DNA of 27,226 nucleotides from IMG/VR virus record IMGVR_UViG_3300007516_000109, positions 1 through 27,226 of that record; one strand, given 5' to 3'. Source of the DNA: a virus. The position numbers and the translations under genes are program-made. The stretch's first letter is position 1; the number at the start of each line of letters is the position of its first letter. Below, in pieces: positions 1,107 to 25,028 of this stretch. Under the pieces are notes generated by a model. It was not told the origin of the DNA, ran no database searches, and saw only the letters and a program-made list of their open reading frames with translations.

Positions 1107-1107
1107 G

Positions 1108-1124
1108 TAGGAACTCCGTTCCTA
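1108..1124 (-). other. Perfect 7-bp hairpin covering the ribosome-binding site of the gp13-like gene
   Basis: TAGGAAC and GTTCCTA are perfect inverted repeats separated by 3 nt, directly before the ATG at 1106. The loop and arm contain the GGAG Shine-Dalgarno. If transcription starts 6 nt after the TAAATA box, only a shortened 4-bp stem remains in the mRNA. Confidence 0.55.
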
Positions 1125-1126
1125 CT

Positions 1127-1132
1127 TATTTA
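1127..1132 (-). promoter_or_regulatory. Late-promoter-like TAAATA box for the gp13-like gene
   Basis: The sequence reads GTAAATAAG on the minus strand, about 20 nt before the ATG at 1106. It contains the TAA stop of the upstream 381-residue gene. It resembles the 3' part of the T4 late consensus TATAAATA. The evidence is position and recurrence of the box across the window. Confidence 0.5.
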
Positions 1133-15597: not shown

Positions 15598-15617
15598 TGA
15601 TTTTTTCCCTTACAGGG

Positions 15618-15623
15618 TATTTA
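15618..15623 (-). promoter_or_regulatory. Late-promoter-like box (CTAAATACC) for the 697-residue gene
   Basis: It lies 20 nt before the ATG at 15597, with the Shine-Dalgarno AAGGG in between. It stands 5 nt after the stop of the upstream gene. Confidence 0.6.
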
Positions 15624-16967: not shown

Positions 16968-17555
16968 TTATAGATCCTTTTGATTATTTATCCGCATTAC
17001 AAAGGTTGACAAATCCTCGTGTGTCAGATTTGTAATATTATCTAGTGCCGGTAGACGGGCCGTGGTGTTGCCGCATACACGAATAAACTGCGTTTTAGGA
17101 AAATCTTTTGTTATTTTTGTCAACTGTTTTGCCCAATTTCCGGTATAAGTAGGTGCTGACCCTGATGGTTTGTAGAACTCTGTGCCTTCGTACAAGTTGT
17201 TGAATTGATTATGTACACTGGGACCCATGTCAAACCCTATAATATAAATTTTAGTATGTTGATCAGTTGCCGCTATGCCCACAGCATTTGGCCCAGAACT
17301 GTATCCGTAATATTCTTGCGGTACACGGTGTGCGCCAAGACCTTCGATGGGCTTGCGAGTATAAAATTTATTTTTAACAGGATACCCAGTTTCTTGTATC
17401 CTTTGTGATATTGCACGGTCTGTGGCCACAAGAACATCCGGTGTGAACTCTCTATAAAGAGCATTGCACCCGTAAATTTTTCCTAGTTTTTGAATATGTT
17501 CCAACGGTAAGCCAGACCTGCTAACGCCGTTTCCAAGCACAAATGCCACAGTCAT
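16968..17555 (-). CDS. Rossmann-like enzyme, glycosyltransferase- or DUF115-like (family uncertain)
   Basis: A 195-residue protein starting MTVAFVLGNGVSRSGL, a classic beta-strand followed by a GNG-x-S loop for binding a nucleotide or sugar nucleotide. It continues LGKIYGCNALYREFTPDVLV and ATD, then KIYIIGFDMG near residue 120, and FIRVCGNTTARLPALDNITN. The pattern resembles sialyltransferase-like/DUF115 proteins. No catalytic residue can be assigned. The start at 17555 is chosen over an ATG at 17591 because GGGGA lies 7 nt before it. The earlier start would put the terminator hairpin inside the coding region. The gene sits between an isolated virion gene and the fibre genes and has a distant relative at 5515-6183. 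Confidence 0.65.
   Translation of the reverse strand: MTVAFVLGNGVSRSGLPLEHIQKLGKIYGCNALYREFTPDVLVATDRAISQRIQETGYPVKNKFYTRKPIEGLGAHRVPQEYYGYSSGPNAVGIAATDQHTKIYIIGFDMGPSVHNQFNNLYEGTEFYKPSGSAPTYTGNWAKQLTKITKDFPKTQFIRVCGNTTARLPALDNITNLTHEDLSTFVMRINNQKDL
16985..16990 (-). promoter_or_regulatory. Possible internal late box (GATAAATAA) for the 203-residue gene
   Basis: It lies inside the last codons of the Rossmann-like gene, 18 nt before the next ATG at 16967, with AAGGATC following. The box also occurs by chance inside coding regions of this window, so this is weak. Confidence 0.3.
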
Positions 17556-17562
17556 AAAAAAA

Positions 17563-17567
17563 TCCCC
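17563..17567 (-). promoter_or_regulatory. Shine-Dalgarno GGGGA buried in the terminator stem
   Basis: GGGGA, seven T, then ATG at 17555. In a read-through transcript it would be paired in the stem. In a transcript begun at the loop box it would be free. Confidence 0.6.
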
Positions 17568-17571
17568 ACGG

Positions 17572-17577
17572 TATTTA
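17572..17577 (-). promoter_or_regulatory. Late-promoter-like box inside the terminator loop
   Basis: GTTAAATACC lies in the 11-nt loop of the terminator, 16 nt before the ATG at 17555. Transcription from it would begin around the second stem arm. Confidence 0.5.
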
Positions 17578-17617
17578 ACTGCGGGGATCAAGTGTTGAAA
17601 ATTAAGTAACTAACGTA

Positions 17618-18412
17618 TTAGGTTGTACTGTCAACTTGTGCTAGGCCCAATGTGCCATTGCTGTTTTGCTGGGTTCCGGCCCATGTAGAAACTTCTGCGC
17701 CTGACTTGGCAAATGTTGACGAATCAGTGAAGAAGTTGGCTGCGTAGTCAATGTTGTCAACTGTAGCAGCGTAATCCCATACATCGCCAGTACTAGCAAC
17801 ACCGCCGGCGCCGCCACCGTTGAAGTCTTGCACAAACTTGTTGGTCAACTTGCTGATGAAAACGTTGGTACTGTCGTCAGCAACTGCCATAGCAATGTTC
17901 ATATTGCCAGCAGTTGGAATCGCAGCGGCTGCCAACACGCACTGACCAACTTCGAATGCTGTACCAGTTGAACCACCTGCAGAGGCCACTGTTGGGGTAA
18001 ACAGTGTACCAATTGCAGCACCGTATGGCGCGCCCATTGCTTGCCAGTCTGTGTTGCCAACCGCTGCAATTTGAAGAGCAACACCCACTACTGCGTTTGC
18101 AGGATCAATAGGAGTTGTGGTTGCCACTAGATACTTACGAGCACCTTTCTGACGAATAATTGCGCCTGCGGCTGCACCAGAGAAGCTGTTTACAATATTC
18201 ACTGTTACAGAAACAATAGGATATGTAGCGCTGACGCCTGCACTGTCAATGCCGCCGACTACTCCACTGAATGGAAACGGTAGTGTAATTGGTTGTGGAA
18301 GTACAACAGTACTTGTGTCCATTGAAGTGGGAGCACCAAATGGAGCATAGCCTTGATCAATTGGTGTTGATGTGACTACGTTGTATTTTTGAATTTTTAG
18401 AGGACGTCCCAT
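17618..18412 (-). CDS. Probable abundant virion protein (264 residues), apparently monocistronic
   Basis: The start MGRPLKIQKYNVV and the central GAIIRQKGARKYLVATTT match a family of virion proteins in aquatic T4-like phages known to me only as structural. Residues 100-170 are Ala/Gly-rich (AVGNTDWQAMGAPYGAAIGT, GSTGTAFEVGQCVLAAAAIP). There are no repeats or membrane segments. AAGGAG lies 7 nt before the ATG, one of the best Shine-Dalgarno sites in the window. A GGCTAAATAC box lies 88 nt upstream and a strong terminator follows 30 nt after the stop. This unit layout suggests high expression, as for a decoration or other high-copy protein, but the place on the virion is not shown. Confidence 0.75.
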   Translation of the reverse strand: MGRPLKIQKYNVVTSTPIDQGYAPFGAPTSMDTSTVVLPQPITLPFPFSGVVGGIDSAGVSATYPIVSVTVNIVNSFSGAAAGAIIRQKGARKYLVATTTPIDPANAVVGVALQIAAVGNTDWQAMGAPYGAAIGTLFTPTVASAGGSTGTAFEVGQCVLAAAAIPTAGNMNIAMAVADDSTNVFISKLTNKFVQDFNGGGAGGVASTGDVWDYAATVDNIDYAANFFTDSSTFAKSGAEVSTWAGTQQNSNGTLGLAQVDSTT

Positions 18413-18499
18413 GTTGTTTTCTCCTTAAAGAAGTCCGATGTAGGTTCTAGCTACTACGCGGCTGGTGTGCCGCATAAAACACCGTATTGTGTTGACAAG

Positions 18500-18505
18500 T
18501 ATTTA
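18500..18505 (-). promoter_or_regulatory. Late-promoter-like box (GGCTAAATAC) for the 264-residue virion gene
   Basis: It lies 88 nt before the ATG at 18412. The leader contains a small GC-rich hairpin (GCGGC, 6 nt, GCCGC) at 18459-18474. Confidence 0.6.
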
Positions 18506-20153: not shown

Positions 20154-20159
20154 TATTTA
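20154..20159 (-). promoter_or_regulatory. Late-promoter-like box 4 nt before the 99-residue gene
   Basis: AATAAATACCGCATG: the box ends 4 nt before the ATG at 20149. Confidence 0.45.
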
Positions 20160-20164
20160 TTATT

Positions 20165-20890
20165 TCATGTGCAGTTGGGTCCGTGCCCGTATTGTTTGAA
20201 GTTGGATTGACGCATAGTTTTGCCACATACTTCACAGGTTAGCATAACTTTATTTTTTTCTTTAGTAGCGGCTATTTTGTCTTTTTGTGCTTGTGTCATT
20301 GGAATATCTTTATTATAGGCTGTTAAGTTTTGCGCTTTTTTAGCGGCACTGATGTTTGCAGCTCTTTCTTCCGAACAGGGTTTTCCGTACATAGCATTGC
20401 CTGGGCCGGATTTTAGTTTAGACATGTTTCTTCGATAGTCTTCACTTTGATACACTGTTGATTTTTTGGGTTTACCTTTTTGAGAAGTACTTAAATTTTT
20501 TTTATGTTCTTCTGACTTAGGCTTATCCTTGTGAATTTTGCTGATTATTTTAGCACCGGCTTTTGTAAGTTCTTTTTTACTAGCTAGATTTGCATTTAAC
20601 CAGATATCATTTTCTAATACCCGGCAACGACGCAACACTCTGTTCTCCCACAGCCCGGTAGTATTGACGTCGTCAAAGGTTCTGCGTACTTCCCACTCAA
20701 AGTTTTCTATCCCGTGATGTTGTATCATGTTCTTAACAAGTTTACTACTTGTTTGATAGTACAGCATCAAGTCCTCTGCAGGGGTTCTTTTGAGTTTTAC
20801 ATTCTTGGTTCTGCTTCCATAATATACTTCTCCGGTTACTTTGCACCGGATCAAGTATGTGTATGGTTTTATTTCGTGTATTAGTTTCAT
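20165..20890 (-). CDS. Free-standing GIY-YIG-type homing endonuclease
   Basis: A 241-residue protein. The N-terminal domain shows a variant GIY-YIG signature: YTYLIRC at 10-16 and EVYYGSR at 21-27, with R27 and E82 (WENRVLRR) as candidate catalytic residues. Two NUMOD3-like DNA-binding segments follow (PKSEEHKKNLSTSQKGKPKK at 124-143 and NAMYGKPCSEERAANISAAK at 165-184). A C-terminal Cys/His knuckle is present (C219, C222, H236, C240). Such enzymes cut a recipient genome and spread their own gene by repair. It lies beside the capsid gene, a known type of site for T4-like homing endonucleases. The late box CTAAATACTATT ends right at the ATG, and no Shine-Dalgarno is visible. A 14-nt gap separates it from the next gene. 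Confidence 0.85.
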   Translation of the reverse strand: MKLIHEIKPYTYLIRCKVTGEVYYGSRTKNVKLKRTPAEDLMLYYQTSSKLVKNMIQHHGIENFEWEVRRTFDDVNTTGLWENRVLRRCRVLENDIWLNANLASKKELTKAGAKIISKIHKDKPKSEEHKKNLSTSQKGKPKKSTVYQSEDYRRNMSKLKSGPGNAMYGKPCSEERAANISAAKKAQNLTAYNKDIPMTQAQKDKIAATKEKNKVMLTCEVCGKTMRQSNFKQYGHGPNCT

Positions 20891-24708: not shown

Positions 24709-24803
24709 AATTTTCCTCCAGTAGGTTATGGCTCATGTTTATTACTTACATAAAAATAATAAACTTGGTACTTTTAGCGGCCAAAACTGGTGTTTTTGAC
24801 GTA

Positions 24804-24811
24804 AATTTATA
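24804..24811 (-). promoter_or_regulatory. Possible late promoter (TATAAATT) for the core-protein gene
   Basis: TATAAATT overlaps the end of the 73-residue gene, 96 nt before the gp67-like ATG. It is the closest match to the full T4 octamer in this gap, but the final base differs. Confidence 0.35.
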
Positions 24812-25028
24812 GGCCAGGGGGCTGAGCAGGCGGAGCGTATTGTTTACGAATGTCCTTCAGTTTTTCACTGTATTCGTATTGTCTTACGTCCGACATTTGT
24901 CGTAGTTTAGATAGTTGCTTTAATGTCAAACGAGTTTTACGCAATTGGCCTTGCTCGGGCTGGCTGTTGTCCTGAGAAATATCTTGATATCCTTCAGGTT
25001 GCTTTTCGTACAGTTCGTTTAAAATCAT
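24807..25028 (-). CDS. Small basic protein between portal and core genes (73 residues)
   Basis: The N-terminal half is Gln/Glu/Asp-rich. The second half (LRKTRLTLKQLSKLRQMSDV, then RQYEYSEKLKDIRKQYAPP) is basic and helical, ending in Pro. Similar RLTLKxLxKLR proteins lie next to gp20 in aquatic T4-like phages. The function is not known to me. The position suggests a small core or portal-associated protein, roughly where T4 has its core genes. Its late box ends 5 nt before the ATG and no Shine-Dalgarno is visible. It starts 8 nt after the portal stop. Confidence 0.75.
   Translation of the reverse strand: MILNELYEKQPEGYQDISQDNSQPEQGQLRKTRLTLKQLSKLRQMSDVRQYEYSEKLKDIRKQYAPPAQPPGL

Follow-up and report, generated by a model that had tools for sequence, protein, structure and literature searches.

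The window analysed here, a stretch of 27,226 nucleotides, is 27 kb of a T4-like phage in which portal gp20, head protease gp21 and major capsid gp23 were recognised. The junction under study lies on the minus strand between a gene of 264 aa (17618-18412) and a gene of 195 aa (16968-17555), whose ATG occupies positions 17553-17555. The 264-aa protein of the window gave no Pfam or PHROG match. Among the matches listed, the same gene lay upstream in 113 of 114 loci examined, the remaining locus being cut at its contig end, and its stop codon stood 44-62 nt ahead of the ATG of the 195-aa gene in the 114 loci listed. This distance disfavours translational coupling between the two genes.

Both neighbours of the 195-aa gene lie behind strict TAAATA boxes. 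The box of the upstream gene is at 18500-18505 (minus strand), and TAAATA was found within the 160 nt upstream of this gene in 59 of 59 cases. The box of the next gene is at 16985-16990 (minus strand), within the 3' end of the 195-aa gene; TAAATA was present in the 60 nt upstream of this downstream neighbour in all 65 cases. The upstream gene is headed by a freshwater-2 RNA (RF02980; Rfam match at 18410-18494, minus strand), which was matched in 18 of 20 related loci directly behind the TAAATA box, starting 5 nt after the box in nine of the 18 and 4-8 nt after it in 17. Of the two loci lacking a match, L100 is truncated on its upstream side, and in L159 nothing scored above the gathering threshold. 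Freshwater-2 belongs to the same gene unit as the junction hairpin described below but is a different RNA; no paper on it was found in the open-licence literature searched.

Other leaders of the window also contain possible structures. The leader of gene 336-1106 (1107-1132, minus strand) can form GTAGGAAC-GGA-GTTCCTAC with GGAG in the loop, and in its counterparts in genomes G009 and G013 the stems differ yet still pair. At 15598-15623 (minus strand), TAAATACCCTGTAAGGGAAAAAATCAATG contains a small CCCT/AGGG hairpin that directly follows the box and has similar counterparts in G004 and G009; it could hide a Shine-Dalgarno sequence only in read-through RNA. An inverted repeat, again similar in G004 and G009, lies within 24709-24838 (minus strand), in the leader of the gene that precedes the one for the head protease. 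Separately, a GIY-YIG endonuclease-like gene (20165-20890, minus strand) adjoins gp23 and has its own close TAAATA box, an arrangement resembling T4 segD beside gene 23.

Structure and conservation of the junction hairpin

Read 5' to 3' on the minus strand, the junction consists of ATCCCCGC (5' arm, 17581-17588), the 11-nt loop AGTTAAATACC (17570-17580), GTGGGGAT (3' arm, 17562-17569), a T7 tract (17556-17562) and the ATG. The loop holds the late-promoter-type box TAAATA (17572-17577), which is exact only in the window's clade, and the 3' arm holds the Shine-Dalgarno sequence GGGGA (17563-17567). As a 44-nt stretch the hairpin had a folding energy of -15.5 kcal/mol (z -4.87), and none of 200 shuffles was equally good. 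Folded in a 98-nt context the energy was unexceptional (z -0.80; 47 of 200 shuffles equally good), so that the weight of the case for the hairpin rests on its conservation. Folding energies of the leaders ranged from -14.9 to -23.3 kcal/mol (65 leader types). Values of -14.5 kcal/mol or lower were found at 21 of 910 ORF starts in ten genomes plus the window, counting ATG-started ORFs rather than curated genes, and 11 of these 21 were this hairpin.

Relatives were collected by three IMG/VR similarity searches with the downstream protein, which contributed 34 loci, the best 80 and the best 80. The contigs behind the resulting 194 locus rows partly recur, the third set overlapping the first two, and more distant relatives, beyond the best 80, may be without the layout. 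Three loci (L001, L002 and L008) share both enzyme and leader with the window, and genome G001 is such a record. Among the matches listed, all 95 distinct 38-nt leaders combine the hairpin and its G-rich 3' arm with a T-rich tract, the ATG and a loop that contains TAxxTA. Most relatives have a stem of ~10 bp and a loop of 7-8 nt, scarcely more than the box; in the window, two extra pairs can close inside the 11-nt loop.

We examined covariation in 49 of the 65 leader types known at that stage; the other 16, which have an atypical stem or small indels close to the loop, had been set aside before alignment. In this set 97.4 % of stem cells were paired, and seven of 11 pairs changed on both sides. 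Changes on both sides occurred in 59 cells, compared with a mean of 18.0 in shuffles (none of 500 reached 59) and with 2-12 in slid structures. A covariance model derived from the loci of searches one and two matched all 80 listed loci of the third on the coding strand, including 30 new leader types. These results support selection on an RNA hairpin at the junction. A chance hairpin was rejected on the basis of the 44-nt shuffles, the covariation and the retention of the structure across the leaders compared. The first-pass annotation had placed a 33-bp nested element at 17556-17588; the placement proved exact. It had also proposed asking whether relatives drop the nested layout, and none of the 95 leaders compared does; only distant pelagiphage homologues do.

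The covariance model found one strong site in each of 26 records besides the window (six genomes or fragments and 20 further records), which indicates that the hairpin belongs to this single junction. Several strong copies per genome were rejected: further matches were weak (E 0.003 or worse), many being the same site on the opposite strand. The pelagiphages HTVC008M and Mosig encode homologues of the enzyme with about 30-35 % identity, in genes that follow or overlap the preceding gene, and the covariance model had no match in either stretch. The layout is thus not general to the whole enzyme family. A search of Rfam with the hairpin returned no family at E <= 1.

Terminator tract and Shine-Dalgarno sequence

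The hairpin has the anatomy of an intrinsic terminator, in which a stable GC-rich stem is followed at once by a U tract, and the mRNA of the upstream gene would be the putative target. The tract is T6-T7 in 60 of 65 leader types and shorter or interrupted in five. A generic terminator scan had no entry for the site; the loop presumably exceeds the 8-nt limit of that scan. T5 before the ATG was found in 14 of 812 ORFs, ten of which carry this hairpin. Such a tract is therefore not the usual spacer, and it fits a terminator tract that would double as the spacer between Shine-Dalgarno sequence and ATG.

The 3' arm reads GGGGA in the window's clade and GGAGGA or GAGGA in the others, and the 5' arm is C-rich. 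This orientation is demanded by a Shine-Dalgarno sequence, not by a terminator alone. In the long RNA, the predicted fold and the covariation both place the Shine-Dalgarno sequence in the paired state. Sequence comparison bears out two proposals of the first-pass annotation: a terminator-like T7 tail, and a Shine-Dalgarno sequence in the second arm (GGGGA, 17567-17563) with the ATG directly behind the tract, GGAGG taking its place in many relatives. Together, a predicted terminator and Shine-Dalgarno sequestration are well supported.

A plain compact terminator, which the ATG merely abuts and whose G-rich arm is incidental, would agree with the intrinsic-terminator anatomy and with the tight packing of the genes. 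It leaves unaccounted for the constant C-rich/G-rich orientation, the GGAGG form of many relatives and a box-to-ATG distance of 15-16 nt in 62 of 65 leader types; moreover, the T tract leaves no space for another Shine-Dalgarno sequence between hairpin and ATG. We regard this explanation, already disfavoured, as very improbable.

TAAATA as the late promoter box

Within 70 nt upstream of the window's ORFs, no hexamer was more strongly enriched than TAAATA, which occurred in ten of 24 upstream regions compared with 0.5 expected. It was also the top hexamer in four genomes (observed/expected: 15/1.1, 24/1.5, 14/1.9 and 18/1.2); the first pair of values is that of G001, a genome almost identical to the window. 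A gp55 annotation exists in the distant relative HTVC008M. Judged by this enrichment and by its spacing to start codons, TAAATA is the T4-type late box of the window phage.

Across ten genomes, which are partly related so that the counts are not independent, 468 TAAATA sites were recorded, of which 91 lay 4, 5 or 7 nt before an ATG, 103 at 15-27 nt and 11 at 8-14 nt; after this gap, spacings resumed at about 16 nt. The distribution suggests that transcription starts about 5 nt after the box, since an ATG at 4-7 nt would then be at or near the first base of the RNA, whereas with a spacing of 8-14 nt the leader could not accommodate a Shine-Dalgarno sequence. The position at which freshwater-2 RNA begins behind its box, mostly 5 nt and nearly always 4-8 nt, points to the same start. 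Applied to the loop, this spacing puts the predicted start at 17566 (box plus 5 nt, +/- 2; minus strand). RNA begun there would still contain the G-run but nothing of the 5' arm.

The 91 close sites also predict leaderless late mRNAs. In the window such sites are at 20159, 20901 and 25039 (minus strand) and at 2352 and 18543 (plus strand). TAAATA at leaderless spacing was scarce in stretches of T4 (one of 75), P-SSM2 (one of 42) and HTVC008M (three of 49). No description of leaderless late mRNAs of T4-like phages was found in the open-licence literature searched; in the accessible portion of PMC9004378, the word 'leaderless' occurs in the reference list only.

The box in the hairpin loop

The first-pass annotation had treated the loop TAAATA as a late promoter, a reading that is partly supported. 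In the window's own clade the loop has the consensus box. In 85 of the 95 leaders it departs from the consensus by a single base, and no clear use of the variants as promoters was seen elsewhere in ten genomes. Among the matches listed, TAAATA stood in the loop of ten leaders, and the remaining boxes were TACATA (41), TAAGTA (24), TAACTA (10), TATATA (5) and TAATTA (5). All variants are single-base changes at position 3 or 4; T1, A2, T5 and A6 were invariant in 95 of 95. In a protein tree of the 95, the TAAATA forms all fell into one clade, along with two TAAGTA rows. On this tree the loop box changed at least 21 times, and all six forms remained within one substitution of TAAATA. Double variants would be expected if nothing constrained positions 3 and 4.

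Before other ORFs of ten genomes the variant boxes were near background. TAAGTA was the sole variant clearly above its own reverse complement at Shine-Dalgarno spacing (20 vs 5), and TAATTA at leaderless spacing (9/282) did no better than the unrelated TACCTA (9/315). Variants as such have a precedent in T4, where, according to the part of PMC2988020 available, 32 of 50 listed late promoter sites are perfect and variant promoters are functional in vitro. The same part describes T4 late promoters as melting within an AT-rich stretch. The loop box lacks such downstream DNA: the GC content of the 10 nt after it averaged 0.60 (range 0.50-0.70; 65 leader types), compared with 0.38 at 98 other late promoters, 9 % of which reached 0.6. 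Because of this GC-rich downstream DNA, we describe the loop as working like a weak late promoter and do not class it as one. At most, the loop would be a late promoter of low strength. A sigma-70 promoter there was disfavoured, as a consensus scan gave none in the loop.

These observations bring in two other explanations. In the first, the hairpin would be a terminator and a lock on the ribosome-binding site with no promoter at all, and very little enzyme would come from rare read-through RNA, from thermal opening or from nuclease cleavage of the AU-rich loop, which would free the Shine-Dalgarno sequence. The off-consensus boxes of most leaders beside strict neighbouring promoters, the near-background behaviour of the variants elsewhere and the GC-rich downstream DNA all agree with it, and a cut in the loop would give a 3' fragment like the RNA from initiation there. 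It does not explain why the loop has stayed within one base of TAAATA through so many changes, nor the exact TAAATA of the window's clade, and with folds as stable as those of the leaders and an upstream stop so far from the ATG, a contribution of translational coupling is unlikely. We consider this explanation unlikely, though it is the one we would turn to next.

The second explanation would make the hairpin a protein-binding translational operator, with a phage or host protein reading the U-A-x-x-U-A loop and regulating the downstream gene. Four loop positions are identical in every leader while the stem drifts, and RNA operators are known in T4, where gp43 and gp32 recognise their own leaders (PMC3014915, in the sections available). 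Against it, the fixed and the allowed loop letters jointly form the neighbourhood of the phage's own promoter box, and we hold an operator to be improbable. The loop sequences are most simply read, in our view, as a late promoter that is weak but under selection.

The downstream gene

The window's 195-aa protein had no Pfam match. Its best PHROG was phrog_30607, of unknown function (E 8.8e-35), followed by phrog_4603, sialyltransferase (E 2.3e-4). Its homologues gave weak hits to PF01973 MptE-like (seven of 56, best E 0.0075) and CST-I (one of 56, E 0.018). An earlier model from nine sequences reached a pLDDT of 54.1 and its fold search was uninformative. An AlphaFold model based on 56 homologues reached 92.5; Foldseek returned no match for it at E <= 0.001. 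Structural alignment with VIA-align gave a Z of 13.2 to the Maf glycosyltransferase 5mu5 (3.6 A over 166 residues) and 10.9 to the sialyltransferase CstII (1ro7_A; 3.9 A over 172 residues), and the weaker sequence matches agree with this fold. We predict that the gene (16968-17555, minus strand) encodes a Maf/GT42-like glycosyltransferase, bearing in mind that a shared fold does not show activity. The earlier description of the product as a sugar enzyme is thus fair at the level of the modelled fold.

The conserved C-terminus of the protein, RINNxKDL, overlaps the TAAATA box and Shine-Dalgarno sequence of the next gene (16968-16995, minus strand, and in homologues). This peptide seems to be dictated by box and Shine-Dalgarno sequence, as the seven of 65 types without TAAATA there have a different C-terminal sequence.

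Discussion

We propose that the hairpin acts as a terminator, a lock on the Shine-Dalgarno sequence and a weak loop promoter between two late genes, an explanation to which, taken as a whole, we give a probability of roughly 0.55. The upstream late mRNA would start behind its strict TAAATA box and bear the freshwater-2 leader, and the hairpin, as an intrinsic terminator, would end it. In RNA that reads through, the hairpin would pair the Shine-Dalgarno sequence of the glycosyltransferase-like gene and leave that gene untranslated. The loop may act as a late promoter of low strength; its box matches the consensus in the window's clade and departs from it by a single base in most others. A low rate of initiation there would yield an mRNA beginning at about the G-run, without the 5' arm and with the Shine-Dalgarno sequence exposed, and output would be low. 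That the gene is translated only from its own promoter, as the first-pass annotation suggested, we infer, most strongly for the window's clade.

A more specific version is that one element unites terminator, translational lock and a deliberately sub-consensus promoter, whose box has been maintained at one base from TAAATA throughout a large clade. The loop would then set a low rate of enzyme production, and the enzyme would be insulated from the preceding gene with its freshwater-2 leader. We advance this version tentatively, at somewhat less than even odds.

If the proposed mechanism is right, the six loop boxes and the many compensated stems would form a natural series for how weak a gp55-type promoter may be. 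The analysis also assigns the freshwater-2 RNA to the leader of a T4-like gene that has a late box, and it suggests leaderless late mRNAs in the window's clade. No description of an element joining terminator, ribosome-binding site and late promoter was found in the open-licence literature searched.

The nearest parallels are in T4. In genes e (lysozyme), soc and 49, RNA structure hides the ribosome-binding site in long transcripts, and the transcripts from late promoters just upstream of gene e are short, lack the 5' strand and are translated well (PMC3014915, in the sections available). The principle would be the same here. However, the long transcripts of gene e are early, so that a late gene is delayed, whereas the upstream gene of our junction itself has a late box; the hairpin also adds a terminator-like T tract. 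I-TevI, and likewise I-TevII, I-TevIII, segB and Aeh1 mobE, have late promoters placed so that the late RNAs are too short to form the structure that hides the ribosome-binding site (PMC2988022, as far as its accessible text goes); with gene e and I-TevI, late transcripts initiated beside or within the structure leave the site open. A comparable placement of a late promoter is what we propose for our junction, but these are homing endonucleases and not glycosyltransferases, and that text describes no T tract between Shine-Dalgarno sequence and AUG. The same text reports intrinsic terminators within the 5' ends of segF and mobE that may limit the downstream endonuclease gene; as described there, these lie within the coding region and are not hairpins that hide a ribosome-binding site as here. 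By analogy, the junction would follow the principle of gene e and I-TevI with three differences: a terminator tract, a long RNA that is itself late, and a sub-consensus box in most relatives. If so, that principle would hold in a further, large group of T4-like phages, which we know from metagenomes only, and a terminator would have been added to the same hairpin that hides the ribosome-binding site.
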